From Acidimicrobiales bacterium (GTDB lineage: Bacteria; Actinomycetota; Acidimicrobiia; Acidimicrobiales; Aldehydirespiratoraceae): a DNA stretch of 43,716 nt. Positions 20,921-42,567 of the stretch are shown in pieces. The DNA lies in assembly GCA_029247365.1 (NCBI GenBank), contig JAQWLJ010000019.1, forward strand, positions 1-43,716, read 5' to 3'. Made by a program: the position numbers and the translations under genes. How positions within the stretch are numbered: the stretch's first letter is position 1; every line of letters starts with the position of its first letter. Under the pieces are notes generated by a model. That model had not been told where the DNA came from. It made no database searches and saw only the letters and a list, made by a program, of their open reading frames with translations.

Positions 20921-22028
20921 GCAGGCCGGCCTTCGTCGAGATCGCGACCGAACGGCGCGAGTCCTGCAACCGGTGCCGCTGCAGGCCGTGGGTCATGAAC
21001 CCGAACGACACCCCAGATGCCGGATCGGCCCAGGCCAGTTGACCCCGAGCGCCACCGTGGCCGAACGTCATCGAGCTCACGGTGTGGCCGTGGCCGCGGC
21101 CGTTCGCCCGCCCGTCGTCGCCGGCAAGGATGAACGCATGGGTTCGGTTAGCCGACACGCCCATGGCGTCCTTGTGGGTCTGACGGATGACGTTGAGGGC
21201 ATCATGCTTGACCTCAGGGCGAAGGATCTCACCGTCGTCGTGCAGGATCGCCTGGTACCACGACGCAAAGCCGCTGGCGCTGGTGATCCCACCGCCACCG
21301 GGTTGGCCCATCGCTCGCACGGCGGGATCATTGAACGAGGTGAGCGCGTCGTCAGTCACCTCGGTAACCGGGAGAGCCACGCCGAACTGGGCTTCGAACT
21401 CGGCCGGGTCGACCGGCTCCCCAACGCAGTACACGTCCGTAATGTCGCCCTGCTCCGGCTCCGGGATCGCGAGCCATCGGGGCTGACCGGCCGGCTCCAT
21501 CACCCGCTCGGTGATGACGTCGGCGTAGGCCCGACCCGAAACCTCCTCAATGAGGTCGGCCAGGACCCAGTGCGCAGACGAGGGGTGGTACTCGAAGCGG
21601 GTGCCTGGCTCCCACGTCGTGCGCCACGTCTCGTAGCGCTGCAAGCGAGCATCACGGTCGGCCGCGATCCGAGGAGCCATCGGCGCCCCCGGGAACCCAC
21701 CCTTGTGGAGGAGTACCTGGGAGACGGTGACCGCTTCCTTGCCGTTCGTGCCGAACGTCGGGAGGATCGACGCAACAGGATCGTCGAGGTCGAAGAGGCC
21801 GTCGGCGGCGAGCTCCATCGCGGTGAGGCTCACCGTCGGCTTGACCGCGGAGTAGGTGTGGAACCGAGCATCGTCACGGGCTTCGCCATACGCCTCGGCG
21901 TAGACGATGTCGCATTCGAAACCGACTGCGAGCTGAAAGCCCGGCATACGACCCTCGTCGACTTCGCGCCGAGCACGCCCGATCAGGTCGTCGAGACGCG
22001 ACGGAACGATCGCGGAGGGCAGGCTCAT
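20901..22028 (-). CDS. beta-lactamase-fold serine hydrolase, coupled to mftF
   Basis: A protein of about 375 aa of the beta-lactamase/penicillin-binding-protein-like hydrolase family (class C fold). The catalytic Ser-x-x-Lys is YSAVKP, a tyrosine motif lies in FEYHPSSAHW, and HGG near the C-terminus stands in for the Lys-Thr-Gly triad. No signal peptide is evident, so it should be cytoplasmic. Members are esterases, peptidases or amidases. Its ATG overlaps the mftF stop (ATGA), so it is translated from the same message as the mycofactocin glycosyltransferase, which suggests but does not prove a role in mycofactocin processing or recycling. Confidence 0.85.
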   Translation of the reverse strand: MSLPSAIVPSRLDDLIGRARREVDEGRMPGFQLAVGFECDIVYAEAYGEARDDARFHTYSAVKPTVSLTAMELAADGLFDLDDPVASILPTFGTNGKEAVTVSQVLLHKGGFPGAPMAPRIAADRDARLQRYETWRTTWEPGTRFEYHPSSAHWVLADLIEEVSGRAYADVITERVMEPAGQPRWLAIPEPEQGDITDVYCVGEPVDPAEFEAQFGVALPVTEVTDDALTSFNDPAVRAMGQPGGGGITSASGFASWYQAILHDDGEILRPEVKHDALNVIRQTHKDAMGVSANRTHAFILAGDDGRANGRGHGHTVSSMTFGHGGARGQLAWADPASGVSFGFMTHGLQRHRLQDSRRSVAISTKAGLLTTPVD

Positions 22029-23434
22029 GGCTCCGCCACGGTAGTCGTGCTCGACGAAGCACCACCATTCCCCACCACCGGTACGAGCGCCTTCGCCGAT
22101 CGGTGCCAGGCTGCGCCTTTCCAGACGCCAACGCCGTAGGCAAGGTGGTCGATGAGGCGAAGGGCAATGCCCCGGACGGGATCGACCCGCCGCTGCGAGT
22201 GCGCGTACTCGACCGCAGTCACGCCGATGAGGGCGACGGCCACTCGACAGCGAACTCGACGAGAGGCGATCGACGCAAGGAGGGTGAACGGCCACCACGC
22301 ACGCAAAAGCGCCGTAATGGTCGATTCAGCCCCATGCTCGATCACGCCGCGGGTGATCTCCGGGGGTGCCTCATCACCAAACGCGGCAACGACCCGGCGG
22401 TGCACGACGGCGGTCGTGGCGGACACAACACCCGAGATCGCCCGAGCCGGAACAACCGCTGCGGCAACAAGGCCGAACAGAACCGGGGTCGGTGGTCGGG
22501 CCGGCGCTGTCGCATCCCCGTGTCTTGCGGCCAGGGGCGCAGCCGACGAGCCGTAAGCCACACGTTGGCGAACCCACCCGCGCCAGTTGGCGCGGGGCCG
22601 ATGCCGGACGACGACGTCGGGGTCATAGCGGATGACCCCTCCGTCGGCCGCAAGCCGCCAAATCAGGTCGACGTCCTCGCCGTAGCGCAGTGTCACGTCG
22701 AATCCGCCGACCGCCCGAACTGCGTCGGCCCGCAGCAGCAGTGCGGCGCTCGGGAGATAGGAGACGAGCCGTCCAGGTCCGACGGGCGAGGGTCTGGGTC
22801 CGAGGTCGAGCGGCGAGAAGTCCTCCTCGTAGGCGGCAAGCAGACCACCACTCGGGGCCGACGCCACCCTCGGAGCTGCGGCGAGCACATCGCGGTCGAC
22901 AAAGTGGCCGAGCAGCGCGGCGACGTCATCGGGAGTGAGTTCGACGTCGGCATCGACGAAGAGCACGTTCGCTGTGGTGACGGCAGCGAGCCCGGTCATC
23001 CGCGCTGCACCGGGGCCTCGGGGGGTGTCGTGACGCAGAACGGTGACGTCGGGTGTCTCGAGGGAAAGCGGCACCATCGAACCGTCGTCGACGACGATGA
23101 CGGGGACCCCCCGGAGGCTCTCGACCAGCCGGCAAACGCCTGGCTCGTCGTCGAGCACCGGGATCACGATCGTGACATCAAGGTCGTCGACCGGCTCGAC
23201 GTGGGGATGGACGAGGCCGCCTGCGAGCAGCCGGCGAGCGAGCCGTCGTTCGGCGTCACCATCACCGACCGGCATCCCGTCGATCCACCGATCGACGATC
23301 GCCGCACCTGCGTCGCTGAGCACAATGGCACGCATCGGCGCTCCACCCACCAACAGGCGCCCCTGATCGCGACGATGGAGACTGCCATCGGCGACGAGCA
23401 TCAGTCCGCTGGGCGCGGGAGCGGGTTCGGCCAT
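22025..23434 (-). CDS. mftF: mycofactocin glycosyltransferase MftF
   Basis: A protein of about 469 aa. Residues ~85-310 form a GT-A family-2 domain: VTIVIPVLDDEPGV, VPVIVVDDGS, the DxD-type FVDADVELT, and the acceptor-site GGFDVTLRYGEDVDLIWRL. Hydrophobic helices follow (LFGLVAAAVVPARAISG and around residue 390). The N-terminal domain and overall length match MftF, which adds a beta-1,4-linked oligoglucose chain to premycofactocin. The ATG at 23434 is supported by a TACCGT box 8 nt upstream. Unlike most clusters it lies about 9 kb from mftE and forms its own unit with a downstream serine hydrolase. Confidence 0.88.
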   Translation of the reverse strand: MAEPAPAPSGLMLVADGSLHRRDQGRLLVGGAPMRAIVLSDAGAAIVDRWIDGMPVGDGDAERRLARRLLAGGLVHPHVEPVDDLDVTIVIPVLDDEPGVCRLVESLRGVPVIVVDDGSMVPLSLETPDVTVLRHDTPRGPGAARMTGLAAVTTANVLFVDADVELTPDDVAALLGHFVDRDVLAAAPRVASAPSGGLLAAYEEDFSPLDLGPRPSPVGPGRLVSYLPSAALLLRADAVRAVGGFDVTLRYGEDVDLIWRLAADGGVIRYDPDVVVRHRPRANWRGWVRQRVAYGSSAAPLAARHGDATAPARPPTPVLFGLVAAAVVPARAISGVVSATTAVVHRRVVAAFGDEAPPEITRGVIEHGAESTITALLRAWWPFTLLASIASRRVRCRVAVALIGVTAVEYAHSQRRVDPVRGIALRLIDHLAYGVGVWKGAAWHRSAKALVPVVGNGGASSSTTTVAEP

Positions 23435-23442
23435 GCGCGGCG

Positions 23443-23448
23443 ACGGTA
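23443..23448 (-). promoter_or_regulatory. -10 box of leaderless mftF promoter
   Basis: TACCGT on the minus strand ends 8 nt before the ATG of mftF. It lies back to back with the -10 box of the divergent amidohydrolase in the 64-bp intergenic region. Confidence 0.45.
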
Positions 23449-23485
23449 GCGTGATGACCCCAGGCGGGCGAAGGCGCCACGCGCG

Positions 23486-23491
23486 TAGCCT
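23486..23491 (+). promoter_or_regulatory. -10 box of leaderless amidohydrolase promoter
   Basis: TAGCCT ends 7 nt before the ATG at 23499, with no ribosome-binding site between. It probably gives a leaderless transcript. Confidence 0.45.
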
Positions 23492-23498
23492 GCTCCGT

Positions 23499-25208
23499 AT
23501 GCACGATCTCGTGGTCCGAAACGGTGAGGTGATCGACGGAAGCGGGGGGCCGCGGCGCATGGCTGATATTGCGATTGACGGCGACCGCATCACCGCCGTC
23601 GGCGCCGATGTCAGTGCCGGCCGTCGCGAGATCGATGCCGATGGTCGCCTCGTGACCCCGGGGTTCGTCGATACCCATACCCACTACGACGCGCAGGCAA
23701 CGTGGGACCCCGAGCTCACGCCGTCGGGCTGGCACGGGGTGACTACCGCTGTCATGGGCAACTGTGGTGTTGGCTTCGCGCCGGCCGCCGCCGATCGGCG
23801 CGACTTCTTGATCCAACTGATGGAAGGGGTGGAAGACATCCCTGGGGCCGCCCTCACCGACGGCATCGAATGGGGCTGGGAAACCTTTCCCGAGTACCTC
23901 GACGACCTCGGTGCCCGGAGCTGGGTACTCGACCTTGGCACCCAGGTTCCGCATGGAGCGTTGCGTGCGTTCGTCATGCGCGACCGGGCGACCGAGGACG
24001 CAACGGTCGATGACATCGCTGCGATGGCGCAGCTGGTCGAGGAAGGCCTTGGCGCTGGGGCTCTCGGTTTCTCGACCAGTCGGACACCCCTTCACAAGGC
24101 CAAGGATGGCGAACTCGTTCCCGGAACGTTCGCTACCCCTGACGAACTGTTCAGCATTGCTGAGGCGGTGCGCTCGGCCGGTCACGGCGTGTTCCAGACC
24201 GCCACCCACCACGCCGACGTTCCGGCGTCGTTCGAATGGATGCGCGAGGTCGCCCGCATCACCGGCCAACCGGTTGTGTTCAACCTCAACCAGCCCGACT
24301 ACGCACCGGACCTCTGGCAGGAAGACCTGAAACTCCTGGACGAAGCGCAGGCCGAGGGCCTCAATGTGCTGGCCCAGGTGTCGGGGCGGCCGGTCGGAAT
24401 TCTCGAGAGTTGGTCGGCCACGGTCAACCCGTTCATGCTCTGCCCGACGTGGGGCCTCATCGGGCAGTTGCCTGAGGCCGAGCGCCTCGCCGAATTACGT
24501 CGACCCGAGGTCCGAGCGGCACTCACGAGCGAGGCCCCGGCCCACTGGACCGACTTCATAACCTCCATCACCCGGAGCTGGGACAAGCTCTACCCGTTCG
24601 CAGGCGAGGCCGACTACGAACCCGATCCCAGCGAGACGTGTGCGGCGCGAGGTGCCCGAGCCGGCGTCGGACCCGCCGAGGTCGCGTACGACCAACTCAT
24701 GGCCGACAACGGCCGCGGGCTGCTCTACTACCCGCTCTTCAACTACTCGAACCAGAACCTCGACCACCTGTGTGAGCTTCATCAGCACCCGCACACGCGG
24801 ATGGGTCTCGCTGATGCCGGCGCCCATTGCGGCACCATTGCCGACGGTGGTATGCCGACGTTCATGCTCCAGTTCTGGGCCCGCGACCGCGCTCGTGGCG
24901 ACCACATGCCGCTCGAGTGGCTGATCCACCGTCAAACCCGGCAGACCGCCGAAATGTATGGCCTGCGCGACCGGGGTCTCCTCATGCCGGGGCTTCGCGC
25001 CGACCTCAACGTGATCGACTTCGATGGGCTCTGCGTCGAACTCCCCCACCTCGTCAACGATCTCCCCACCGGGGCGAGCCGCTACGTGCAGCGGGCGACC
25101 GGCTACGCCGCCACCGTGTGCGCTGGCGTAGTGACGGTGGAGGACGACACGTTCACCGGCGAAACGCCAGGCCGTCTTGTGCGCGGCCCTCAGACCGATC
25201 TGCGCTGA
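23499..25208 (+). CDS. D-aminoacylase-type amidohydrolase
   Basis: A protein of about 569 aa of the amidohydrolase superfamily, closest in pattern to N-acyl-D-amino-acid deacylases. The N-terminal beta-sandwich (DLVVRNGEVIDGSGGPRR) leads into the metal-binding HTHYDAQATWDP; later metal ligands and the barrel motif can be seen at TATHHADVP and the C-terminal GLADAGAHCG, and the family end motif GLLMPGLRADLNVID is present. It would hydrolyse an amide bond in the cytoplasm. It is divergent from mftF and abuts, tail to tail with no gap, the ABC permease gene. A link to mycofactocin peptide turnover is only a guess. Confidence 0.87.
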   Translation: MHDLVVRNGEVIDGSGGPRRMADIAIDGDRITAVGADVSAGRREIDADGRLVTPGFVDTHTHYDAQATWDPELTPSGWHGVTTAVMGNCGVGFAPAAADRRDFLIQLMEGVEDIPGAALTDGIEWGWETFPEYLDDLGARSWVLDLGTQVPHGALRAFVMRDRATEDATVDDIAAMAQLVEEGLGAGALGFSTSRTPLHKAKDGELVPGTFATPDELFSIAEAVRSAGHGVFQTATHHADVPASFEWMREVARITGQPVVFNLNQPDYAPDLWQEDLKLLDEAQAEGLNVLAQVSGRPVGILESWSATVNPFMLCPTWGLIGQLPEAERLAELRRPEVRAALTSEAPAHWTDFITSITRSWDKLYPFAGEADYEPDPSETCAARGARAGVGPAEVAYDQLMADNGRGLLYYPLFNYSNQNLDHLCELHQHPHTRMGLADAGAHCGTIADGGMPTFMLQFWARDRARGDHMPLEWLIHRQTRQTAEMYGLRDRGLLMPGLRADLNVIDFDGLCVELPHLVNDLPTGASRYVQRATGYAATVCAGVVTVEDDTFTGETPGRLVRGPQTDLR

Positions 25209-26009
25209 TCAGCCGACCGGGTCACGGCGCTCGATGAGCACCGCCGCGACCACCGTCATCACCACGGCGATCGCAACAGCGACCACTACCTCGATCCACG
25301 GTGCACCGAACATCGCGGGCTGCGCAGCGACGAGATGGTGGAACGGAGACAGCTCTTGGAGCGGCCGGCCCCACGACGCGATCGAACCCACGATTTCGGT
25401 CGCGTAGGCGAACACCACAAGGCCCGTGCTGGCACCGACGGTGGGGCCACGACGTCCAACCGCTCCGGCGACGAGCAGTGCCACTGCGCCGAACAGCAAT
25501 CCGAACACCCGCATCACGATGGATACCTCCACCAGGCGACTGACGCTCAAGCCGAGGTCGACCATCGGCCCACCGATGAGGACGGTAAGTGCGGCTAAGA
25601 CGACCGGGACCGCAACGACCAACGCAACCGCTGCCGCCGTCTCGAAGACAATCCTCGCCCGAGTTGTTGGTCCACTTACGACGAATGACATCCAGCCGCG
25701 CTCGTCTTCGCCACCGAGCAACGCTGCCGCCGCGTTCGCGGCGAAGATCGCGGCAAGGACGGGCAGCATGAGCGAATACAGCTCCGCACTCATGAACCCC
25801 GGCCCGGTCGACAGTGAGACACCGCCGCCGATGAGCGCTCGAATCGGCTCCGGGTATTCCTCGAGCAACTCGTCGAAACTGTTGTCGTCGCGCACGACCG
25901 GGAACACCGCAAGCATCATCGAAACGAAAGCCACGGTACCGATCCCCCACCCGGTCAACGAGCGAGCGCGACACCGCAGCGCGCGGACGGTGAACGGGAA
26001 ACGACTCAC
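25209..26009 (-). CDS. ABC-2 type transporter permease
   Basis: A protein of about 266 aa with some six hydrophobic helices (GWGIGTVAFVSMMLAVF, YSLMLPVLAAIFAANAAAAL, VALVVAVPVVLAALTVLIGG, and three more), matching ABC-2 membrane subunits of exporters. The segment ALLGGEDERGWMSFVVSGPTTR is the cytoplasmic loop commonly seen in this family. The GTG at 26009 overlaps the expected stop of the ATPase gene (GTGA), indicating translational coupling. It is the last gene of the apparent dehydrogenase-MoxR-VWA-ABC operon. Substrate unknown. Confidence 0.82.
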   Translation of the reverse strand: MSRFPFTVRALRCRARSLTGWGIGTVAFVSMMLAVFPVVRDDNSFDELLEEYPEPIRALIGGGVSLSTGPGFMSAELYSLMLPVLAAIFAANAAAALLGGEDERGWMSFVVSGPTTRARIVFETAAAVALVVAVPVVLAALTVLIGGPMVDLGLSVSRLVEVSIVMRVFGLLFGAVALLVAGAVGRRGPTVGASTGLVVFAYATEIVGSIASWGRPLQELSPFHHLVAAQPAMFGAPWIEVVVAVAIAVVMTVVAAVLIERRDPVG

Positions 26010-26877
26010 CGATTGCCCTCCCCACTGAGGTTGACAAATCCGCCTTCGAGGGTTGTTTTGACGTGGAGAAGTCAACGATCTCAAAACCGGCCGCGGTCTT
26101 CACCAGCGCATCGATCGACCCCGTCACCTCGGTGTCGAGGCGTGACCCGTCAGCCATCACACTGACGACTCCCGGTAGGTCGGCAAACGCCGCAATTGGA
26201 GCGGCCTGACCGAACTCAATCGAGACGACGCGGCGGCTCAACCGGGCGAGGTCGTCGACCGAGCCATCGAACACAGCCACACCTTCGCGGAGGACGACGA
26301 CCCGATCGCAGACATGTTCGATGTCGCCGAGCACGTGAGACGAGACAAACACCTCGGCACCGCGATCCGCCGCACACCGCAACGTCGCCCAGAGCTTGTG
26401 CCGCACCAGTGGATCGAGCCCCGTCGCCGACTCGTCCATGACGACCAAGTGCGGCTCGTGCATCAACGCGATCGTGATGGCGGCCTTTTGCCGGTTCCCA
26501 CGGGACAGCTCGGAGATGCGTTTGCGCGATTGGACGCGCAGCGCCTTTTTGATCTCGGCCCGGCGCACAGCCGGCCCCCGCACCGACTCCCACCAGTCGA
26601 GCTGCTCGCTGATCGTCCACCGATCCTCGAGTGGCGGGTCGTCCGGCAGGTAGCCGGCCCCTTCACGAACGCCGGCCCGGGCGACGTCGCCACATGCGAT
26701 CCGGGCACAGCCGTCTGTGGGCCGGATAAGGCCCAGCAACATCTGCATCGCAGTGGTCTTCCCCAACCCGTTGGCACCGATCAGGCCGCCAATCTCGCCA
26801 CCGTCCACAGACAACGACACGCGGTCGACCGCAAGCATGTCGCCGAAGCGCTCCGTCAATTCATCGAGTTGGAGCAC
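26006..26877 (-). CDS. ABC transporter ATP-binding protein, with a -1 frameshift near its end
   Basis: An ABC ATPase of the ABC-2 exporter class with Walker A GANGLGKTT, signature LSRGNRQ and Walker B LVVMDESATGLDP. At 26056-26059 the coding strand has a run of four A; after TCA AAA the frame must step back one base to give TTLEGGFVNLSGEGNR and a stop that overlaps the permease GTG by four bases. In the unshifted frame no stop occurs before 25222 and the tail is meaningless. A missing A in the run (mutation or sequencing error) or slippage on AAAA could explain this. The start is uncertain: GTG 26877, or TTG 26916. About 290 aa if read through. Confidence 0.8.
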
Positions 26878-26946
26878 TGGAGTGATGTATCGAGCGTCGC
26901 ACTCGGCAACGGTCAAGCGCGGGGACTTTGGTACCGATATCGACTT

Positions 26947-27819: not shown

Positions 27820-27869
27820 CCGTCGGTTCTCATCGGCGAGCGCCTGTTGCGCGTCATCGCCTTCGAGGG

Positions 27870-28811
27870 TCAGCGGGGCGCCGCTGTCGCCCCGTCCGGG
27901 GCGGTCGCTTTTCCCGAGTCGGTGTCGCCGTCGGATTGCGGCTGCTCAGCCGCAAGTACGGCCTTCCACAACTCGGTGATGACGTTCTCGGGGGTCTTGT
28001 CGCCACCCTCGTGCAAGCGGATACGGCCCGAAAGTGCCGTGAGCGCCGCGTCAAGACCGAGGTCTGAGTCGTCGACCGGCAGGCTCCGCATCGCGGCGAG
28101 CTGATGGGCAACTTCGACCAAGTCGATCGCGCCGCGGACTGACGAGCCAACCCGGACATCACCGTGGGTGCGAGTGGCGCGCGTGATCGTGACCGCTCGC
28201 TTACGGAGCGTGCGATCATCAGCGGTGGTGTTGCGGACGACGATGTCCGACTCATCATCGATCGACTGGTAGCCCATTGCGATTCGGCACATACGGTCAT
28301 AGACCGCCCCCGACACCCGGGCCGTACCGATGTTGTCGAACGGGTTCATCGCCGCAACGAGTCGGAACCCATCGGCCGCCCCGATCCGACCCAGACGCGG
28401 CAAGGTGAGCTCGCCTTCGCTCATCACCGTGATGAGGAGGTTGACCGTCTCCTCCGGCACCCGGTTCAGCTCCTCGACGTAGAGGAGCGAACCGTTGCGG
28501 AGCGCTTCGACGAGCGGCCCGTCGACGAACACGTCTTCGCTGTAGCCGTCCTCGAGGACCCGCGACGGGTCGAACTGTCCAGCCAGGCGGGCGGGTGTGA
28601 GCTCGGCATTGCCCTCGACAAAGACGAACCCAGCCTCCGCCGCTGCCGCGACCTCACGAAGGATCGTCGACTTACCGGTGCCGGGTGGGCCTTCGAGCAG
28701 TACGTGGCGATCGGCAGCGAGCGCCGCCAACAGCACTTCGAGCTCGCGACGCCGCCCGACCACGCGCCCGCAGAGCGCGTCGACGACAGAGGGATCGGTG
28801 AGGGCGGTCAC
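27870..28811 (-). CDS. MoxR-family AAA ATPase
   Basis: A protein of about 313 aa with a single AAA+ module: Walker A GPPGTGKST, Walker B-type LLYVEELNRVP, and sensor-1 LVAAMNPFDNIGTA, as in MoxR/CoxD/NorQ ATPases. These act with VWA proteins in maturing metalloenzymes or dehydrogenases. The C-terminal ~80 residues are helical with a low-complexity end (SGKATAPDGATAAP). The GTG start lies 10 nt after the stop of the NDMA-type alcohol dehydrogenase gene, so the two are certainly in one transcript unless a promoter is hidden in the dehydrogenase. Confidence 0.88.
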   Translation of the reverse strand: MTALTDPSVVDALCGRVVGRRRELEVLLAALAADRHVLLEGPPGTGKSTILREVAAAAEAGFVFVEGNAELTPARLAGQFDPSRVLEDGYSEDVFVDGPLVEALRNGSLLYVEELNRVPEETVNLLITVMSEGELTLPRLGRIGAADGFRLVAAMNPFDNIGTARVSGAVYDRMCRIAMGYQSIDDESDIVVRNTTADDRTLRKRAVTITRATRTHGDVRVGSSVRGAIDLVEVAHQLAAMRSLPVDDSDLGLDAALTALSGRIRLHEGGDKTPENVITELWKAVLAAEQPQSDGDTDSGKATAPDGATAAPR

Positions 28812-28821: not shown

Positions 28822-29934
28822 TCAGTCGAAGGTGATGACGCCGCGAATGTTCTTGTTCGACATCATGTCGGCGTAGCCCTCATTGACTTGGTCGAGGGTG
28901 TACGTGTTGGTGATCATCTCATCGAGCTTGAGCTGCCCAGCCTGGTACATCGACAGCAGGTGGGGGATCTCCTTGCGCGGCGCAGTCGAGCCGAACAGGC
29001 AGCCCTTCAGCTCCTGATTCATCATCGAGAACATAAACAGGTTGAGCTGCACGTCCATCTGGGCTGCAGGAGCCACTGCGGTGGCGACGACGGTGCCGCC
29101 CTTGCGAGTGAGGAACTGGGCCGGAGCAATCAGATCACCGGTTAGGACCGACGGGGTGAGGATGACCGAGTCGGCCTGCACACCTTCGGTGAGCCCGCCG
29201 ACAAGTTCCATCGCCTCTTCCATCGAAGGCGCCGAGTGGGTGGCGCCAAACTCCATGGCGCTCTCGCGCTTGAACTCACTGGGGTCGATGGCGACGATGT
29301 TCTTCGCGCCCGCAATCTTTGCGCCCTGGATAGCAGCGGTGCCAAGACCACCACAGCCAACGATCACGACCGTGTCACCGGCGGTGACCTCGGCACGGTT
29401 GACGGCCGAGCCGTAACCGGTGGTGACACCACAGCTGACAAGTGCGGCTGGGCCAGCCGGGACATCCTTTTGGATCTTGATGGCCGAGTCGACGCTGAGG
29501 ACCATATGTTCCGCGAAGGTGCCGAGTTTCAGCAGCGGGGTGAGCGGGGTGCCGTCGGCATCGAAGTGACGATGGGTGCCGTCGATCATGCCGGGCTCCA
29601 TGAGTTTGGCCCCTAGATCGCACAGGTTCTGCTGTCCGCGGGCACACCAGGTGCACTTGCCGCAAGACGGGATGAACGAGCACGAGATCTGATCGCCGAT
29701 CTCGAACTCCGTCACGCCTGGGCCGAGACCGATGACGGTTCCGGAGCCCTCGTGGCCACCGATGATCGGCATGGGGACGGGCATGGTGCCGTCGTGAGCG
29801 TGCTCGTCGGAGTGGCACATGCCCGCAGCGCCGGTCTTGACGAGGATCTCCCCTTCCTTCGGGTCGTCGAGTTCGATCTCCTCGACACTCCATTCGGCAC
29901 CGACCTCACGCAGAACTGCGGCACGGGTCTTCAT
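28822..29934 (-). CDS. NDMA-dependent (mycofactocin-linked) zinc alcohol dehydrogenase
   Basis: A medium-chain dehydrogenase of about 370 aa. It has the catalytic-zinc segment GMCHSDEH with GGHEGSG, the structural-zinc cysteines CGKCTWCARGQQNLC, and the nucleotide loop GCGGLGTAAIQG. The local sequence (FIPSCGKC, VSCGVTTGYGSAV, NLFMFSMMNQELKG, NIRGVITFD) is that of the Rxyl_3153-type NDMA-dependent dehydrogenases, nicotinoproteins whose tightly bound NAD is re-oxidised by mycofactocin rather than by exchange. The ATG at 29934 has AGGAG 6 nt upstream. A TACCTT box (29974-29969) may be its -10. It heads an operon with moxR, a VWA gene and an ABC exporter. Confidence 0.9.
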   Translation of the reverse strand: MKTRAAVLREVGAEWSVEEIELDDPKEGEILVKTGAAGMCHSDEHAHDGTMPVPMPIIGGHEGSGTVIGLGPGVTEFEIGDQISCSFIPSCGKCTWCARGQQNLCDLGAKLMEPGMIDGTHRHFDADGTPLTPLLKLGTFAEHMVLSVDSAIKIQKDVPAGPAALVSCGVTTGYGSAVNRAEVTAGDTVVIVGCGGLGTAAIQGAKIAGAKNIVAIDPSEFKRESAMEFGATHSAPSMEEAMELVGGLTEGVQADSVILTPSVLTGDLIAPAQFLTRKGGTVVATAVAPAAQMDVQLNLFMFSMMNQELKGCLFGSTAPRKEIPHLLSMYQAGQLKLDEMITNTYTLDQVNEGYADMMSNKNIRGVITFD

Positions 29935-30023
29935 CACGGTCTCCTCATCACTGGCGGGGAACCGTCAGAAGGTACCAGCGGCCCACCGACCGGGGACAGT
30001 TCGCCGACCTGCGACAGCATGGC

Positions 30024-30035: not shown

Positions 30036-31154
30036 ATGGCCGACGAACCCACCCCAGACACCGATGACATGGTCGTGATCACGTCCTCGCGATCGCCCGA
30101 GGAATTGGGCAGCCGACTAGAGGCGTGGCTCGCCGACATCACCGGAGACTCGGGGGCGACGGTCAGTAATACGTCATCACCGGACGCCAACGGCATGTCG
30201 AGTGAGTCGGTCTTTTTCGACGCCTCGTTCCATGGCGAGTCTGGATCGTTCGTTGCCCGACTCGCCCCAACCGACGAAGACGTTCCCGTCTTCTCGGAGT
30301 ACGACCTCGACAAGCAGGCCCGGACCATCGAACTGGTTGCAAGCCGCACTGACGTCCCCGTCCCAACGGTGCGCTGGAACGAACCCGACGCCAGGCACCT
30401 CGACGTGCCGTTCTTCGTGATGGAGAAGATCGAAGGCCGAGTACCACCCGACATCCTCCCGTACCCGATGGACGGCTGGGTCCGTGACTTCAGCGACACC
30501 GAACGTCGGGCTCTCCAGGACAAGAGCGTTGCTGTACTCGCCGGCATCCACTCGATCGACATCAGCGATGGCTCGGCCGACTTCCTTCAGGCCGACGCCT
30601 CGCTCGGAGCTACACCACTCGAGCGCCACTTTGCGCAGGAGAAGGTCTTCTACGAATGGATGGTTGACGGCGCTGGACGCCGATTCCCCACGATCGAACG
30701 GGCCCACGCCTGGATCGAGGCCAACTGGCCCGACGAGCAGCCGAGCGCGATCTCTTGGGGCGACTCGCGAATCGGCAACATCATGTACGCAAATGACAGC
30801 ACCGACCCCGTAGCCGTCCTCGACTGGGAGATGGCGACCATCGCGCCACCGGGGCTCGACGTCGCATGGATGTGCTTCCTGCACCGCTTCTTCGAGTTCG
30901 TTCTGCAGAAGTACGGCGTCGACACGCTGCCCAACATGCTCCGGCCCGAGGACGTTCGCAACACCTACGGCGAATTGACTGGCACCGACGTCGGCGACCT
31001 TCGCTTCGAGCTCGTCTACACCGCCGCCCGCCACGCTGCGATCATGGCGCGGGTGCATGCCCGCAGCGTGCACTTCGGCACCGAGGAGTGGACCGACGAC
31101 CCCGACGACGCGTTCCGCTTCAAGGATCTGTTGACGGAGATGCTTTCGGACTGA
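30036..31154 (+). CDS. APH-type phosphotransferase family protein
   Basis: A protein of about 372 aa with the protein-kinase-like fold of aminoglycoside/choline phosphotransferases. The catalytic loop is SWGDSRIGNIMY, keeping the essential Asp and Asn but with Trp in place of the usual His, a change common in the branch found near acyl-CoA dehydrogenases. The metal-binding motif is VAVLDWEMATI. Substrates of that branch are mostly unknown; antibiotic resistance should not be assumed. It is transcribed divergently from the NDMA-type alcohol dehydrogenase. A 6-bp hairpin (31160-31187) beyond the stop could be a weak terminator. Confidence 0.87.
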   Translation: MADEPTPDTDDMVVITSSRSPEELGSRLEAWLADITGDSGATVSNTSSPDANGMSSESVFFDASFHGESGSFVARLAPTDEDVPVFSEYDLDKQARTIELVASRTDVPVPTVRWNEPDARHLDVPFFVMEKIEGRVPPDILPYPMDGWVRDFSDTERRALQDKSVAVLAGIHSIDISDGSADFLQADASLGATPLERHFAQEKVFYEWMVDGAGRRFPTIERAHAWIEANWPDEQPSAISWGDSRIGNIMYANDSTDPVAVLDWEMATIAPPGLDVAWMCFLHRFFEFVLQKYGVDTLPNMLRPEDVRNTYGELTGTDVGDLRFELVYTAARHAAIMARVHARSVHFGTEEWTDDPDDAFRFKDLLTEMLSD

Positions 31155-31255
31155 GACCCCCGAGCGGCCGGGCCCACGAAGGCTCGGTGCCGGTCGTGAC
31201 GAGCCGACACGTTGGGCTTCAGAGGACCCACGCCGCGAGGCCGGTGTCGCAGCCC

Positions 31256-32038
31256 TCAGGGGGTAGCCGTCATCCCACCGTCGACCGGGACAACAGCGCC
31301 GGTGATCGCAGAAGCCGCCGGCGAGCACAGCCAGGCGATCGTGGCCGCCACCTCGACCGGATCGATCAACCGGCCAAGGGGTTCTTGATGACGGACGAAG
31401 TCCTCCGCCGAACCGAGCCCGTACAGCCGGGCCGACTCGTCGAGGCCGGGCGTGAACGTGGAACCCGGGGAGACGGCGTTGGCGGTGACACCGGTGCCGG
31501 CAAGATCGGCTGCCAGCGAGCGGACGAGCCCAATCACCCCATGTTTTGCTGCGGCATACGGTGCCATGTGGCGCAGCCCAAGTGAGCCGGCAGCGGACGC
31601 AACAGCGACGACGCGGCCAGCGTCGGCGTCGAGCACCGCTGGCATCGCAGCGCGAACCGTGGTGAAGACACCAGTGAGATCGGTCGCGATCACTGCGTTC
31701 CACTCGGTGTCGGAGACCTCCCATACGGGACCGCCACCGGCAACAATCCCAGCGGCACAGATGACGGCATCGAGACGCCCGTGCCTGGCCACTGCGGCAG
31801 CGACGACCTCGACCATCCGGTCGCCGTCGGCGACATCGGCGTGCGCAGCCTCAGCCGATCCAGCCCGCATCACCACCCCTGCAAGATCATCGGCTGATGC
31901 CATGTCGTAGGGCACCGCTGGGTCAGGGCTGCAGCGATCGACAGCAACGATGTGCCAGCCGTCGGCGGCGAGCGCCTGCACAGTCGCAGCGCCGATGCCC
32001 CGACCGGCTCCGGTGACGAGGGCGACGGGTTGGCTCAT
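31256..32038 (-). CDS. mycofactocin-coupled SDR family oxidoreductase
   Basis: A short-chain dehydrogenase of 260 aa: nucleotide-binding VTGAGRGIG, ICAAGIVAGG, catalytic Ser in VASAAGSLG and Tyr-x3-Lys in YAAAKHG. The distinctive stretches (VDRCSPDPAVPY, AVSPGSTFTPGLD, RLIDPVEVAATIAWLCSPAASAITGAVVPVDGG) match the SDR subfamily that is encoded next to mftE and uses mycofactocin as electron acceptor. Its ATG overlaps the mftE stop (ATGA), so the two are co-translated. The substrate, probably an alcohol or hydroxy compound, is unknown. Confidence 0.9.
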   Translation of the reverse strand: MSQPVALVTGAGRGIGAATVQALAADGWHIVAVDRCSPDPAVPYDMASADDLAGVVMRAGSAEAAHADVADGDRMVEVVAAAVARHGRLDAVICAAGIVAGGGPVWEVSDTEWNAVIATDLTGVFTTVRAAMPAVLDADAGRVVAVASAAGSLGLRHMAPYAAAKHGVIGLVRSLAADLAGTGVTANAVSPGSTFTPGLDESARLYGLGSAEDFVRHQEPLGRLIDPVEVAATIAWLCSPAASAITGAVVPVDGGMTATP

Positions 32039-32706
32039 GGCTCCATGTTCTCAGAAAGGACTACGACCTCGTCGACCCACCGGGCCAGGATCTGCTCGCC
32101 TCGCTTTGGGGTTGCACAGGTTGGGTCGCCGAGCACCCCATTCGGGGTGACCGCAGCGAGCCCTCCCGAGCGGAGTTCATCGATGATCTCGACCGTCGGG
32201 GCCGTAACTCCCGGCTCAGCTCGTTCCATGCGGACGCGCCCCGCGTCGATCGCCAGCATCACCGATGTCTCAGCATCGCCAGCGTGGGCATCGCCGTCAG
32301 CGAGGCGCGCGTGCCAGACCCCGAACGGTCGACCCTCGTACTCGCAGATTTTTGCCGCCGCCCCAACGGCATCGACGTTGCCTCCGTGACCGTTGACCAC
32401 AACGATCCGATCGAACTCCGACCCGGCCGTTCGAATGATCTCAACGATGGCCGCTGCGAGCACATCGGTGCCGATCGAGAGCGTCCCAGCGAACCCGGCG
32501 TGCTCGCCGGCGGCACCAATCGGAAAGGCTGGAGCAGCGATACCAGCGGGCACGATCGCCGCCGCTCGTTCGGCAACTGTTGTGGCGATCACGGTGTCGG
32601 TGTCGAGGGGGAGGTGGGGTCCGTGCTGCTCGGTCGATCCGAGCGGCAGCAACAACACCCGAGCTGCGCCGACCTCTTCGGTGGTGTGGTCACAGAGCCG
32701 GGCCAT
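32035..32706 (-). CDS. mftE: mycofactocin precursor peptidase MftE (creatininase family)
   Basis: A protein of about 223 aa of the creatininase fold: LGSTEQHGPHLPLDTDT and VNGHGGNVDAVG carry the metal ligands, with another His/Asp/Glu set in DAHAGDAETSVML. MftE cleaves the modified C-terminal Val-Tyr unit from MftA to give AHDP. Three starts are possible (32757, 32739, 32706). I choose ATG 32706 because a TACGAT box lies exactly 6 nt upstream, the same leaderless layout seen for other genes here. It overlaps the downstream SDR by four bases. Confidence 0.92.
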   Translation of the reverse strand: MARLCDHTTEEVGAARVLLLPLGSTEQHGPHLPLDTDTVIATTVAERAAAIVPAGIAAPAFPIGAAGEHAGFAGTLSIGTDVLAAAIVEIIRTAGSEFDRIVVVNGHGGNVDAVGAAAKICEYEGRPFGVWHARLADGDAHAGDAETSVMLAIDAGRVRMERAEPGVTAPTVEIIDELRSGGLAAVTPNGVLGDPTCATPKRGEQILARWVDEVVVLSENMEP

Positions 32707-32712
32707 ACCTCG

Positions 32713-32718
32713 ATCGTA
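32713..32718 (-). promoter_or_regulatory. -10 box of leaderless mftE promoter
   Basis: TACGAT on the minus strand ends 6 nt before the ATG at 32706. It fixes the choice among three candidate start codons, and suggests the mftE-SDR pair is transcribed separately from mftABC. Confidence 0.45.
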
Positions 32719-32737
32719 CGACCGCTGGCGTCCGGCC

Positions 32738-32956
32738 ATGGTGTCGTCTCGCATCACCCCACTCTCGTGCTTCGACTCGGACTTCCCATTCGAGTACCAC
32801 GGGTGGATCGATGCTCCCGACGGCCTCGGCTCGATCCCCGACGCTGCGAAGGGTCAAGAGGTTGCGGTCGTCGGCGCCGGCACCCACACCTCGAACCTGG
32901 GGCCCGGCGACGTGTGGGACGAGCGCGGACCGACCGTCCGCGCCGACCGGTGCTAG
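32738..32956 (+). pseudogene. remnant of a flavin amine oxidase N-terminus
   Basis: From ATG 32738 a 72-codon frame reads FDSDFPFEYHGWIDAPDG then LGSIPDAAKGQEVAVVGAG. This resembles the N-terminus of flavin-containing amine oxidases of the tryptophan 2-monooxygenase type, where such a lead-in ends in the FAD-binding GxGxxG loop. Here the similarity stops at VVGAG, and unrelated codons run to a TAG at 32954-32956, 10 nt before the VOC gene. The remaining several hundred residues of such an enzyme are absent, so this is most likely a deletion relic. It lies antisense to the region upstream of mftE. The family assignment is from memory of the pattern and moderately sure. Confidence 0.5.
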
Positions 32957-32966
32957 TAAGAAACCC

Positions 32967-33668
32967 ATGATCCGACTTCGCCAACTCGTCACGGTGGCCG
33001 CCGATCTCCGATCGACCGAGCGAGCGATCACCGAAGCCCTCGATGTTGAGGTCTGTTACCGCGATCCCGGCGTCGGCCACTTCGGGCTGCGGCACGGCCT
33101 TTATACGATCGGTGATCGGTTGCTCGAAGTCGTTGCGCCGAAGCAAGCCGGCACCACCGCGGGTCGGTTCCTCGAACGCCGCGGGGGAGACGGTGGCTAC
33201 ATGGTGATCGTGCAGGTCGACAACCTCGCCGACCACAGGGCTCGGCTTGCCACGACCCATATCCGTACCGTGTTCGAAGCCGACGCACCGGGCATGCAGG
33301 GGCTGCACCTCCATCCAGCCGACGTCGGCGGCGCAATCCTGTCGATCGATCAGGCCGACCCACCGGAGAGCTGGGCATGGGCCGGATCCGATTTTGCGTA
33401 CCACGCCAATTCGTCTGTTGTCGCCGACATGGTCGGCGTCGAGATCCAGGGTGACGATCCTGATGCCCTCACCGCGAGTTGGTCTGTGGCACTCGGCGTG
33501 GCGGCCACCGTTGACCACACGATCGAGCTCAACGATGCAACGATCCGTTTCGTGCCAGCCTCTGATGGCCGCGGCGACGGACTCGCCGCCATCGATCTCC
33601 GCGCCATCGACCGGAGCCGGGCCGGCGAAACACTCGAGCTCAGCGGCGCCCAGTTCAATCTCGTGTGA
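32967..33668 (+). CDS. VOC-family (glyoxalase-like) protein
   Basis: A protein of 233 aa with two paired beta-alpha-beta-beta-beta modules (about 1-115 and 125-233), starting IRLRQLVTVAADLRSTERAI, followed by GVGHFGLRHGLYTIGDRLLEVVAP and later GLHLHPADVGGAILSID. The vicinal-oxygen-chelate fold is shared by glyoxalases, dioxygenases and binding proteins; candidate metal ligands His and Glu are visible in the first half, but the function is open. No ribosome-binding site precedes ATG 32967; a TAGTAA sequence 7 nt upstream may serve as an imperfect -10 box. Confidence 0.8.
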   Translation: MIRLRQLVTVAADLRSTERAITEALDVEVCYRDPGVGHFGLRHGLYTIGDRLLEVVAPKQAGTTAGRFLERRGGDGGYMVIVQVDNLADHRARLATTHIRTVFEADAPGMQGLHLHPADVGGAILSIDQADPPESWAWAGSDFAYHANSSVVADMVGVEIQGDDPDALTASWSVALGVAATVDHTIELNDATIRFVPASDGRGDGLAAIDLRAIDRSRAGETLELSGAQFNLV

Positions 33669-33943: not shown

Positions 33944-33946
33944 GCG

Positions 33947-36292: not shown

Positions 36293-36308
36293 CCCGTGCC
36301 GATACTCC

Positions 36309-39874: not shown

Positions 39875-39878
39875 CCCA

Positions 39879-41066
39879 TCAGCCTATGGCTGCCCCCGAG
39901 CGGACTCCGGCGCCGGGCTTGCGGCCGATCGTGACCGCAGTGCGGCTGTGATCCTTGCTGACCGAGGCGCGGGCGACGGAATCCATTGCGGCCTCACCAT
40001 GGCCAAGTACGCACTCGGGGTCGGGACCATCAACCGGGATACCTGTGAAGAACTTGGCTGCCATGCAGCCACCCTGGCATGCGTCGAAGTGGCCACAGCT
40101 CGCACAGGCGCCAGCCGACTGCGGTTCGCGCAATTCGGTGAAGAGGTCGCTCTGCTGCCACACCGTCTCGAAGCCACCCTCGTCGCGAACACTTCCAGCG
40201 AGGAACTCGTCGTGCAGCACGAAGGGGCAGGCGTAGACGTCGCCGACAGGGTCAATCAGACAGACGACTCGACCTGCACCACACAAGTTGAGTCCGGGGA
40301 GGGCTTCGCCGAGGGCGGACAGATGGAAGAACGAATCGCCCGTGAGCACATCCGGACGGTCTATCAACCAACGGTAGAGATCTCGTTGCTGCTGGTCGGT
40401 GGGGTGAAGCTCTTCCCACGAATCGGCACCGCGCCCCGACGGTCGGAAGCGCGTGAGCCGCAGCTGGGCGCCGTAGCGGTCAGCCATCGCCTCGAACTCG
40501 TCGACCTGGGCAATGTTGTGGCGGGTCATCACGACCGAGATCTTGAATCCCTCGAAGCCGGCGGCGTCGAGGTGTTCCATCGCCTCCACTGCGGTGGCAA
40601 ACGAGCCTTCACCGCGCACGTGATCGTTGGTTTCGGCGTCAGCACCGTCGATCGAAATCTGAACGTCGACATAGTCGGATTTGGCGAGCCGCTTGGCTAC
40701 CGCAGCGTCGATGCCTGATCCATTGGTAGAGAACTTCACCCCCACGCCGTGATCGACCGCGTACTGGACGAGGTGCCAGAAGTCCTTGCGGATGGTGGGC
40801 TCGCCACCGCCGATGTTGATGTAGAAGACCTGCATTCGCTGCAGTTCGTCTATGACCGCCTCGCACTCTTCGGTGGTGAGTTCGCGGGGGTCGCGGCGGC
40901 CCGACGACGACAGGCAGTGCACACACTGCAAGTTGCACGCGTAGGTGAGTTCCCAGGTAAGGCAGATAGGAGCGTCGAGGCCTACCTTCATCTGGTTGGC
41001 CAGGCCCGACTTCTTCACCGGCGACAGAACGAGGTTCTCGGGGCGGGGCTCATCGATCAGGGTCAT
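39879..41066 (-). CDS. mftC: mycofactocin radical SAM maturase MftC
   Basis: A protein of 395 aa. The radical SAM cluster motif is CNLQCVHC (residues 44-51, Cys-x3-Cys-x2-Cys), followed by NIGGGEPTIRKDF. The C-terminal SPASM-type region contains CGAGRVVCLIDPVGDVYACP and CASCGHFDACQGGC for auxiliary iron-sulfur clusters. MftC decarboxylates the C-terminal tyrosine of MftA and then links it to the preceding valine, using S-adenosylmethionine. It overlaps mftB by four bases (ATGA) and is followed after 4 nt by the DmdA-like gene. Confidence 0.95.
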   Translation of the reverse strand: MTLIDEPRPENLVLSPVKKSGLANQMKVGLDAPICLTWELTYACNLQCVHCLSSSGRRDPRELTTEECEAVIDELQRMQVFYINIGGGEPTIRKDFWHLVQYAVDHGVGVKFSTNGSGIDAAVAKRLAKSDYVDVQISIDGADAETNDHVRGEGSFATAVEAMEHLDAAGFEGFKISVVMTRHNIAQVDEFEAMADRYGAQLRLTRFRPSGRGADSWEELHPTDQQQRDLYRWLIDRPDVLTGDSFFHLSALGEALPGLNLCGAGRVVCLIDPVGDVYACPFVLHDEFLAGSVRDEGGFETVWQQSDLFTELREPQSAGACASCGHFDACQGGCMAAKFFTGIPVDGPDPECVLGHGEAAMDSVARASVSKDHSRTAVTIGRKPGAGVRSGAAIG

Positions 41067-41371
41067 GACGCGGTGCTTTCTTCGGCAACGAGGAAGTCCG
41101 ACGCAGCGAGCGAGGCGAGGGCCTTCTCGAAGCTCGGCCAGCGGCAGGGGTCGATCTCGGCGGCGTCGAACGCCGCCCGCACGGACTCGTGCCCGTCGAG
41201 CGATTTCACGAGCTTCACGAGTTCGGGGGCGCGAAGGAAATTCAACCGACGATTGCCGTAGTGATACGCCAGCGCCCCGAACGGTTCGGGTCGCAGCGCA
41301 ACACGTTCATGCAATCGATACGCGACCGCCGAGTCGAAGGTCAAGGACTCAGTAAACGCCGCACATGCCAT
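41063..41371 (-). CDS. mftB: mycofactocin precursor chaperone MftB
   Basis: A protein of about 102 aa with the PqqD/RRE-type fold: YRLHERVALRPEPFGALAYH then YGNRRLNFLRAPELVKLVKS. MftB binds the MftA leader and delivers it to MftC. The ATG at 41371 lies inside the end of mftA, reading the same DNA in another frame for 23 bases, with an AGGAG 10 nt upstream; a TTG at 41344 is a less likely alternative. The four-base overlap with mftC shows tight coupling. Confidence 0.9.
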   Translation of the reverse strand: MACAAFTESLTFDSAVAYRLHERVALRPEPFGALAYHYGNRRLNFLRAPELVKLVKSLDGHESVRAAFDAAEIDPCRWPSFEKALASLAASDFLVAEESTAS

Positions 41372-41474
41372 CGATGGAGATCTCCTCGACGAGCAGCTCT
41401 TCTTCGACCAGGTCGGGCTCGACGGGCTCGATGGTGTCGACTGGGGTTTCATCGACAAGTTCGGTGGGCTCCAT
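41349..41474 (-). CDS. mftA: mycofactocin precursor peptide MftA
   Basis: A 41-residue peptide easily missed by gene callers. It begins MEPTELVDETPVDT, has a leader dominated by Glu, Asp, Val and Leu, and ends ISIDGMCGVY, the invariant C-terminus of MftA. The last Val-Tyr is the part that becomes mycofactocin. A GAGGAGG ribosome-binding site lies 5 nt before the ATG. Its final codons overlap the start of mftB. A TACAGT sequence at 41508-41503 is a candidate -10 box, giving a 22-nt leader. Confidence 0.95.
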   Translation of the reverse strand: MEPTELVDETPVDTIEPVEPDLVEEELLVEEISIDGMCGVY

Positions 41475-41502
41475 GGATCCTCCTCGGGGCGGCTCGTCTC
41501 TC

Positions 41503-41508
41503 ACTGTA
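41503..41508 (-). promoter_or_regulatory. candidate -10 box of the mftABC promoter
   Basis: TACAGT on the minus strand, predicted start near 41496. Unlike neighbouring leaderless genes this gives a leader with a strong ribosome-binding site, consistent with abundant precursor synthesis. No clear -35 was found, which fits a regulated promoter. Confidence 0.4.
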
Positions 41509-41580
41509 GAGGTAGTCACGGCACGCAGCGATTCGCCCGAGCTCTGGACGTGCTTTTGCGCGTTTCGGCGAGGGTGATGC

Positions 41581-41594
41581 CTGGCAGCTGCCAG
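41581..41594. promoter_or_regulatory. 14-bp palindrome upstream of mftA
   Basis: CTGGCAGCTGCCAG is a perfect palindrome 107 bp upstream of the mftA start, in the 235-bp gap after the TauD-type gene. It could be a regulator site (for instance for a TetR-type repressor) or part of a terminator for the upstream gene; there is no T-tract. A second loose repeat (ATGGTC/GACCAT, 41636-41660) lies nearer the TauD-type stop. Confidence 0.35.
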
Positions 41595-41709
41595 CCACCC
41601 CTCAGCACCGCGCAGCGCTGGCTGACACCGGGTTCATGGTCACCGCTGTGTCCCGACCATCGCAGGCGCAGGGACGTTTTCGGTCTGGAGCGACGCCACG
41701 GTCTCGCCG

Positions 41710-42567
41710 CTACGCCGCAGTGACGTCGTGGTTGTAGCCGATCGTGGTGCGGTGCAGGAGTCGCTCATAACCCTCGAAGCCGCCTGTCGCCTTATGCAGC
41801 ACGCATCGGTTGTCCCACATGACGAGCATGTCGGGCTCCCACACGTGCGTGTACACGAACTCGTCGCGGGTCTGCCACTGGTTGAGTTCGATGAGCAAGG
41901 GGATCGCTTCATCGCTCTGCATCCCCTCGATCCCGATGATGTAACCAAGGGTGGAGTACACGGCTTCGGCGCCTGACTCTCGATTGGGTCGGATGAGTAG
42001 ATGGGTTTGGGTCGCGTACGCCTCGTCGCTCGGGACGATCCGCATGGAGCGGTCGTCGGGATCATCGTCGCCATAGACACCGTCGGGGGCGTACGCGGTG
42101 CGAGCACTGTGGATCGCGGTGAGGCCCTCGATCTTCTCTCGCAGCTCAGCCGGCATCGCCGCCAGCGCCGCAACCTGGTTCGCAAAGAGCGTGTTGCCAC
42201 CGACAGCTGGAATGATTCGCGAGGCGAGACACGTGCCGTCGGGTGGGAACTCCTGGAACGTCCAGTCGGCGTGCCAGTTGTCGGCGAAGAGGGGGGCCTG
42301 CTCGTCGGGTCGGCGATGGATTGCGGCGATGTTGTTGCGGCCATCGATCGGATCGAAGAACGGGTCATGGCCGAACGGGCCAAAGTGCAATGTGAAGCGC
42401 TCAAGATCATCGTCGCTCACCGGTTGATCGGGGAACACGAGTACGTGATGATCGAGCCACGCCGAGCGAACCGCGGCAACGGTGTCGGCGTCGAGTGGTT
42501 GGGCGAGGTCGAGGCCACGCACGAAGGCGCCACACGCTTGACCGGACGGGGTCACCTCGATCGTCAT
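41710..42567 (-). CDS. TauD/TfdA-type Fe(II)/2-oxoglutarate dioxygenase
   Basis: A protein of 285 aa. The iron-binding His-x-Asp is in WHADWTF, the distal His in the C-terminal LLHRTTI, with the 2-oxoglutarate-binding Arg expected a few residues on and the conserved MWDNRCVLHKATG just before. The family oxidises compounds such as taurine, sulfonates, 2,4-D and other small acids; the substrate here is unknown. It lies 12 bp after the DUF2237 gene on the same strand and about 235 bp before mftA. A TACAAC 6 nt upstream of ATG 42567 may be a leaderless -10. Confidence 0.9.
   Translation of the reverse strand: MTIEVTPSGQACGAFVRGLDLAQPLDADTVAAVRSAWLDHHVLVFPDQPVSDDDLERFTLHFGPFGHDPFFDPIDGRNNIAAIHRRPDEQAPLFADNWHADWTFQEFPPDGTCLASRIIPAVGGNTLFANQVAALAAMPAELREKIEGLTAIHSARTAYAPDGVYGDDDPDDRSMRIVPSDEAYATQTHLLIRPNRESGAEAVYSTLGYIIGIEGMQSDEAIPLLIELNQWQTRDEFVYTHVWEPDMLVMWDNRCVLHKATGGFEGYERLLHRTTIGYNHDVTAA

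Follow-up and report, generated by a model that had tools for sequence, protein, structure and literature searches.

The window analysed here, a 43,716-nucleotide stretch from an Acidimicrobiales bacterium (assembly GCA_029247365.1, contig JAQWLJ010000019.1, positions 1 to 43,716 of the forward strand), carries one complete mycofactocin cluster, collinear with a compact relative and stretched by insertions. Among its additional genes, a single pair is widely conserved; it encodes an AAA+ machine made of a MoxR-type ATPase and an adaptor with a VWA domain. By analogy with NorQD and CbbQO, we consider it probable that this pair matures or reactivates mycofactocin-dependent nicotinoproteins. The kind of machine is already known; what is new is its proposed client, the mycofactocin-dependent dehydrogenases.

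The MoxR/VWA pair and its neighbours

In the window, the pair lies directly downstream of a gene whose product is predicted, from its score above the TIGR03989 cut-off, to be a nicotinoprotein alcohol dehydrogenase (ADH) of the type dependent on N,N-dimethyl-4-nitrosoaniline (NDMA).

28822..29937, minus strand: NDMA-dependent ADH (nicotinoprotein), the proposed client; TIGR03989, 506.8 bits against a cut-off of 440
27870..28811, minus strand: MoxR-type AAA+ ATPase, 10 nt past the ADH gene; PF07728, PF20030
26947..27819, minus strand: VWA-domain adaptor; PF13519, with a DxSGS metal ion-dependent adhesion site (MIDAS)

Relatives of this MoxR were gathered in three sets. In 248 genomes of the order (Acidimicrobiales), MoxR was sampled by similarity, without using its neighbourhood, and mftC and the ADH were sought in the same genomes, all three presence calls being set by E-value limits. 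A phylum sample of 396 genomes overlaps the order sample in genomes. The third set, from named records, started as the best 80 of 98 relatives; the counts were made on 49 of these, after removal of 31 (L199-L214, L216-L230) that were distant or fragmentary. When the three were merged and 5 duplicates of the order set removed, 134 distinct MoxR copies remained. A VWA gene is next to MoxR in 128 of them, 19 of these being fusions of the two. The other six (L100, L127, L142, L149, L195, L197) are all located at the end of a contig or close to it, and BLAST detected a piece of VWA in L195.

The MoxR gene is preceded on the same strand by an NDMA-dependent ADH gene in 96 of the 134 copies, at 200 bp or less in 91. 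Otherwise the upstream partner is a short-chain dehydrogenase/reductase (SDR) only (22 copies, with a distance limit of 3 kb and a loose score) or another mft gene only (5 copies). Ten linked ADHs, chosen to represent divergent branches, were scanned with TIGR03989 and all score above its cut-off, and eight of ten linked SDRs scanned (of 20 distinct) exceed that of TIGR04504 or TIGR03971 and are thus mycofactocin-coupled. Three loci (L269, L270, L275) have the order mftA-SDR-mftB-mftC-ADH-[MoxR-VWA fusion]-mftD-mftE-mftF. G321, G491 and G574 have several MoxR copies each, of which one is beside an ADH and the others are beside SDRs; in G491 (L277, L278), the one copy is with an NDMA-dependent ADH and the others are with a mycofactocin-coupled SDR. 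The pair is also present in records whose titles name Amycolatopsis, Geodermatophilus, Modestobacter and Kribbia. A record titled as a Bifidobacterium breve metagenome-assembled genome (L159) has a MoxR identical to that of G246, a genome of the window's order, and its title looks wrong.

The two proteins have the features of a MoxR AAA+/VWA couple, namely conserved AAA+ motifs and a MIDAS-bearing VWA protein encoded in the adjacent gene. The motifs GPPGTGK, VEG[N/T/S]AELTP, EE-x-NR and A[A/S]MNP[F/Y]D are found in 23 of 23 aligned MoxR proteins (the window's and 22 of the 34 short ones of the named-record set), and the D-x-S-G-S motif in 27 of 27 aligned VWA proteins (the window's and 26 of 32 unfused ones; L198, which is masked, L181, which has no MIDAS in frame, and others were left out). 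The names and roles given to these motifs, such as Walker A and MIDAS, are those that we take them to have. Among structures in the PDB, the sequence of the window MoxR matches midasin best and NorQ second, with CbbQ and CobS also present, while the VWA protein has no PDB sequence match at E 0.1. Its predicted model (predicted local distance difference test score 91.9) was compared with known structures by Foldseek; each of the five best matches is to chain G of a NorQD complex (E 5e-10 to 7e-8), a chain that we take to be NorD.

Co-occurrence with mycofactocin genes

Among the 248 genomes of the order sample, 69 have MoxR, 99 mftC and 86 the ADH; 66 have both MoxR and mftC, and 64 both MoxR and the ADH. 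Thus mftC is present in 66 of the 69 genomes with MoxR versus 33 of the 179 without it (Fisher p 4e-31, with no correction for descent). In the 11 families with both states, the figures are 31 of 34 versus 10 of 42, and when labels were shuffled within these families, 1 shuffle in 200,000 was as strong as the observed association. The ADH follows the same trend: among the mftC-bearing genomes of the order, it is found in 61 of 66 with MoxR versus 20 of 33 without (Fisher p 2e-4). In the phylum sample, MoxR occurs in 30 genomes, mftC in 51 and both in 26, so that mftC is present in 26 of 30 genomes with MoxR versus 25 of the 366 without it. The corresponding counts for genomes outside the order are 13, 26 and 9.

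The history of the linkage was followed on a rapidly built tree with 93 linked ADHs and 40 unlinked ones (40 of the 78 unlinked ones fetched; close to a contig end, the label "unlinked" may be mistaken). Of the 27 genomes with mftC and without MoxR that were not yet covered, 20 were fetched. This tree requires 17 changes of the linkage label, where shuffled labels require 34.5; with well-supported branches alone, the minimum is 14. The linkage is therefore clustered as descent predicts, yet it has been gained or lost many times. In one genome of the window's family (G175, L311; given as 98% complete), a single case, mftC and MoxR are jointly absent and the ADH is kept; this ADH groups with the linked ones.

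These data bear on the view that the pair merely travels alongside the cluster as a matter of neutral synteny. Within a family the arrangement is indeed passed on by descent, and for 11 of the 134 copies, some truncated by contig ends, no dehydrogenase or mft gene was found. Such a view does not account easily for an enrichment that persists under within-family shuffling, for the repeated label changes on the ADH tree, for the pairing of one MoxR subfamily with two unrelated dehydrogenase folds or for MoxR-VWA fusions inside mft runs, and we hold it to be highly improbable.

The strong co-occurrence with mftC could be read in another way, with MoxR/VWA serving mycofactocin biosynthesis, for instance the maturation of MftC, MftD or MftF, and not the dehydrogenases. 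Five copies do have mft genes alone nearby, and five loci (L090, L092, L093, L097, L098) are organized as SDR-MoxR-VWA-mftE-mftF, their genomes having the ADH at another place. Against this, the pair is missing from 33 of the 99 mftC-bearing genomes of the order and from all 14 mftC-bearing genomes of one family of the phylum sample, f89. Moreover, no mftC over the limit is found in G491, which has three MoxR copies, G321 has two further copies beside SDRs and far from mftC, and the SDRs upstream of the pair in L092 and L096 are themselves mycofactocin-coupled. A role in biosynthesis thus appears unlikely, and help to the dehydrogenases remains the reading that we prefer.

A third view starts from MftG. 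The preliminary description of this DNA had noted that mftG, mftR and mftM are not seen in the window, and the same holds for the genome, which is 98.2% complete: no match to TIGR03970 (MftG), TIGR03968 (MftR) or NF041255 (MftM) is over its cut-off genome-wide, two other MftG models, TIGR04542 and NF038210, lying outside this search. A GMC enzyme encoded on contig C15, the protein of the genome most similar to MftG, was considered as mftG and rejected, as it scores 313.9 bits against the MftG cut-off of 387.45 and is over the cut-off for betA (choline dehydrogenase). The pair might then replace the absent MftG by coupling the respiratory chain to the reduced dehydrogenase or to mycofactocin, much as RavA-ViaA is reported to act on fumarate reductase. 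Indeed, MftG and MoxR occur in 12 and 26, respectively, of the 51 mftC-bearing genomes of the phylum sample, with an overlap of 0 (hypergeometric p 3e-5). All 12 MftG genomes (TIGR03970 over cut-off), however, are among the 14 mftC-bearing genomes of f89, so that the exclusion is not independent evidence and may reflect one historical event. Outside f89, 11 genomes have mftC and neither MftG nor MoxR, and MoxR and VWA proteins are not redox proteins. We regard a respiratory role as quite unlikely, and return to a role in the maturation or reactivation of nicotinoproteins.

Proposed function

In the NorQD system, as described in two reports (PMC9976466; PMC13036017), a MoxR ring drives a VWA adaptor; this adaptor binds the client through its MIDAS, and the client is opened for metal insertion. 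By analogy with NorQ/NorD and CbbQ/CbbO, the MoxR of the mycofactocin cluster would form a complex with its VWA neighbour, the ATPase ring pulling on the adaptor and the adaptor gripping a dedicated client enzyme through its MIDAS. Remodelling driven by ATP would then open the client, allowing a cofactor to enter or a stuck active site to be reset. The client would be a mycofactocin-dependent nicotinoprotein, presumably the zinc-type ADH in the window and mycofactocin-coupled SDRs in other loci.

The assisted step that we favour would be the loading or repair of NAD(H), because the two kinds of client, of unrelated folds, are thought to have tightly held NAD(H) in common. NDMA-dependent ADHs would hold their NAD tightly. 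Insertion of a metal would suit the zinc ADH and be less apt for the SDRs. In SDRs of the TIGR03971 type, an insertion buries the NAD, and no exchange was observed (PMC5264612). In its most specific form, which we put forward tentatively and as rather less than probable, the proposal is that MoxR/VWA is a dedicated nicotinoprotein activase, an ATP-powered device opening the buried NAD(H) site of both ADHs and SDRs so that the cofactor can be loaded, exchanged or repaired.

Several observations weigh against this interpretation. Of the 33 mftC-bearing genomes of the order without this MoxR, 20 have the ADH; together with f89, they indicate that the ADH and mycofactocin can occur without MoxR/VWA. 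Conversely, MoxR is present without mftC in three genomes of the order (G092, G103, G180), two of which, G103 and G180, keep mftE and mftF beside MoxR, and in four of the phylum sample (G311, G431, G491, G600); G491, with its three copies, is 94% complete in 2 contigs. To the 11 copies mentioned above as having no dehydrogenase or mft gene should be added some doubtful partners: the linked SDRs of L177 and L182 are not mycofactocin-coupled, those of L124 and L126 lie 2.2 and 1.5 kb away, and the tandem MoxR copies of L273 and L277 share one SDR each. The two copies of G004 (L144, L150) adjoin neither an ADH nor an mft gene, and one is beside an aldo-keto reductase; they possibly have other clients. 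One VWA orthologue, that of L181, has no MIDAS in the aligned frame, perhaps owing to a frameshift. In the structural comparison, the Foldseek TM-scores to the VWA query are 0.45-0.50, and the 50 rows returned by VIA-align for the same model are generic VWA domains, NorD being absent from them. Finally, the solved mycobacterial TIGR03971 SDRs already contain NAD (PMC5264612). This, with the many mftC-bearing genomes that have no pair, speaks against NAD loading being strictly dependent on such help.

If the proposal is right, lineages without MftG would have, in the nicotinoprotein activase, a part of the mycofactocin system that has gone unrecognised. Mycofactocin-coupled SDRs hold a non-exchangeable NAD, and a conserved ATPase pair beside such dehydrogenases bears on the question of how these sites are filled or reset. 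The pair is present in Acidimicrobiales and in culturable actinobacteria, which makes this question accessible by gene deletion. Family f89, the only one with MftG in the phylum sample, is probably that of the mycobacteria (a guess on our part), and its lack of the pair would be why the pair has not been seen in mycobacterial work.

In a literature search that left aside most subscription journals, no paper was found linking mycofactocin with MoxR or VWA, or nicotinoproteins (NDMA-dependent enzymes) with MoxR, and none of relevance on mycofactocin in Acidimicrobi- taxa. A 2011 study by Haft (PMC3023750) catalogues the protein families found clustered with mycofactocin; it does not contain the word ATPase. 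Two papers, PMC8191103 and PMC7105596, were the only ones of this search to contain both mycofactocin and MoxR or VWA, and the mentions are in table rows that are unrelated or in a legend.

The mycofactocin cluster of the window

The preliminary description had reported mftA to mftF and two families of client nicotinoproteins, SDR and NDMA-dependent ADH. All of them were confirmed on the minus strand by scores above curated cut-offs, and the six biosynthetic genes make this a mycofactocin biosynthesis cluster. In addition to the ADH given above, the cluster comprises:

41349..41519, minus strand: mftA, precursor peptide with C-terminal ISIDGMCGVY; TIGR03969, 48.6 bits against a cut-off of 25; PF23709
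41063..41458, minus strand: mftB; TIGR03967, 102 against 33 bits, the profile aligning from residue 43
39879..41066, minus strand: mftC, radical SAM maturase; TIGR03962, 627.6 against 265 bits
33947..35179, minus strand: mftD; TIGR03966, 632.9 against 470.85 bits
32035..32757, minus strand: mftE; TIGR03964, 250.9 against 172 bits
31256..32038, minus strand: mycofactocin-coupled SDR; TIGR04504, 313.8 against 250 bits; NF040491, 285.6 against 265 bits
22025..23401, minus strand: mftF; TIGR03965, 355.1 against 280 bits, the profile aligning from residue 68

The coordinates of mftB are those of the listed open reading frame (ORF); its true start is probably at about 41344, past the mftA stop. The start of mftF is uncertain, as its ORF extends to 23593. 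A second complete mft cluster elsewhere in the genome would have undermined the island as first described; a profile search of the genome found mftC in a single copy over the cut-off.

The mft genes, the SDR and the ADH are all encoded on the minus strand, between positions 41519 and 22025. Judged by strand and family matches, they fall into five minus-strand runs (mftABC with a DmdA-like gene; mftD; mftE with the SDR; ADH-MoxR-VWA-ABC; mftF with a serine hydrolase), separated by plus-strand genes: those for Bax1-I, DUF4956 and CotH proteins (35.6-38.3 kb), a VOC-like gene, an APH-family gene and an Amidohydrolase_3 gene. The initial picture of an island interrupted by plus-strand genes is therefore accurate. 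Its description as dispersed is misleading, because another Acidimicrobiales locus (L151) holds the same order compactly, in about 13 kb: mftABC-(Bax1)-mftDE-SDR-ADH-MoxR-VWA-(amidohydrolase)-mftF-serine hydrolase. The idea of scattered genes was rejected on this ground. In G243, a genome of the window's family, a compact mftABCDE-SDR-ADH cluster is accompanied, in the next 10 kb, by a second ADH with MoxR-VWA-mftF.

Other genes in and around the cluster

41710..42567, minus strand: TauD-like dioxygenase, upstream of mftA; NF007104, 154.4 against 313 bits
38741..39874, minus strand: GcvT/DmdA-like protein; NF009133, 358.8 bits, below the cut-off of 410; PF01571
35582-38307, plus strand: Bax1-I, DUF4956 and CotH genes, between mftD and the DmdA-like gene
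32967..33668, plus strand: VOC-like protein, between mftE and mftD; TIGR03081, E 2.6e-6, under its cut-off; presumed start inside ORF 32580-33668
30036..31154, plus strand: APH-family protein, an insertion; PF01636
25222..26916, minus strand: ABC ATPase ORF; PF00005
23433..25208, plus strand: Amidohydrolase_3 family protein, between the ADH-MoxR-VWA run and mftF; PF07969
20901..22028, minus strand: beta-lactamase-family serine hydrolase; PF00144, start ATG at 22028

The extra genes first named with the cluster (DmdA-like, serine hydrolase, MoxR/VWA, ABC and TauD-like) do exist, each having a domain or profile match. The serine hydrolase had been placed inside an interval beginning at 22025; it lies almost wholly outside it. 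By their scores, the TauD-like protein is not assigned as a taurine dioxygenase, nor the DmdA-like protein as a dimethylsulphoniopropionate (DMSP) demethylase. The opposite strand of the VOC-like and APH genes carries the minus-strand ORFs 32754-33518 and 30177-31724; these were set aside as genes, neither having an NCBIfam match and the former having no Pfam match either. The second half of the ABC ATPase ORF (about 270 codons) looks out of frame when judged by eye, and its tail is overlapped by ORF 25209-26084, so that window positions 25209-26916 may contain a frameshift or an assembly error. Upstream of the TauD-like gene, positions 42580-43465 carry a DUF2237 gene (minus strand) and a GNAT gene (plus strand), both of which are also near mftA in G243 (L039). 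The Bax1-I gene adjoins mftD in L151, G118, G084 and G149 as well, the APH-family gene recurs in G084 and G149, and the Amidohydrolase_3 gene has an equivalent position in L151 and L152.

It had been suggested that all these genes might form a broad extended oxidation system with mycofactocin, including the DmdA-like, TauD and serine hydrolase proteins and the ABC exporter. Recurrence near mftC was counted in the loci fetched from L032 on, 77 of which have mftC and which vary in length and selection; the 4-kb stretches L001-L031 were examined by BLAST only. The GcvT/DmdA-like gene, which starts 4 nt past mftC, is found in 2 of the 77 mftC loci, adjoining mftC in both (G084, G149); both are of the window's genus, and the gene is a genus-level accessory. 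The serine hydrolase gene shares 4 bases with the end of mftF and is downstream of mftF in L151 and L152 too; it recurs in 1 of the 77 mftC loci and in 4 loci overall, and is also seen downstream of MoxR-VWA in L155 and L160. The amidohydrolase occurs in 1 of the 77 and in 2 loci overall. With the score limits applied, no further fetched locus yielded a TauD or VOC gene, and the ABC ATPase was found in none outside the window's own stretch (L054); the three were rejected as partners. Of the extra genes, MoxR/VWA alone is thus broadly enriched near mftC. Of the extended mycofactocin-dependent system, the MoxR/VWA pair with its dehydrogenase stands, and the remaining accessory genes are unsupported; in its broad form we find it very doubtful.

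Comparison with known systems

With the known mycofactocin cluster (mftA-F(G,R); Haft 2011, PMC3023750; MftG, PMC11778925), the window has mftA-F and the two client families in common, and it differs by MoxR/VWA, by the insertions and by having no mftG, mftR or mftM over the cut-offs searched. The DmdA-like protein resembles the DmdA/GcvT folate-dependent demethylases in having GCV_T and GCV_T_C domains and in its 358.8 bits to the DMSP demethylase model, but this is below the cut-off of 410. GvpN, the gas vesicle ATPase (TIGR02640), is the top NCBIfam match of the window MoxR, which at 78.7 bits is nevertheless far under the cut-off of 266.8 and is not assigned to that family.

The closer likenesses are to the two systems on which the proposed function is modelled. 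NorQ/NorD, which mature nitric oxide reductase, are also a MoxR-type ATPase with a VWA partner, and NorQ and the NorQD complex are among the matches of the window proteins. No nitric oxide reductase gene is beside the pair in the window, where the neighbours are the ADH, ABC, APH and mft genes. Unlike that of NorQD, the proposed client is a nicotinoprotein dehydrogenase and not a membrane iron enzyme, and 19 MoxR-VWA fusions set the mycofactocin-associated pair apart. CbbQ/CbbO, the rubisco activase, likewise combines an ATPase and a VWA adaptor devoted to one enzyme, and CbbQ is among the PDB matches of MoxR; the pair of the window would differ from it in its client.

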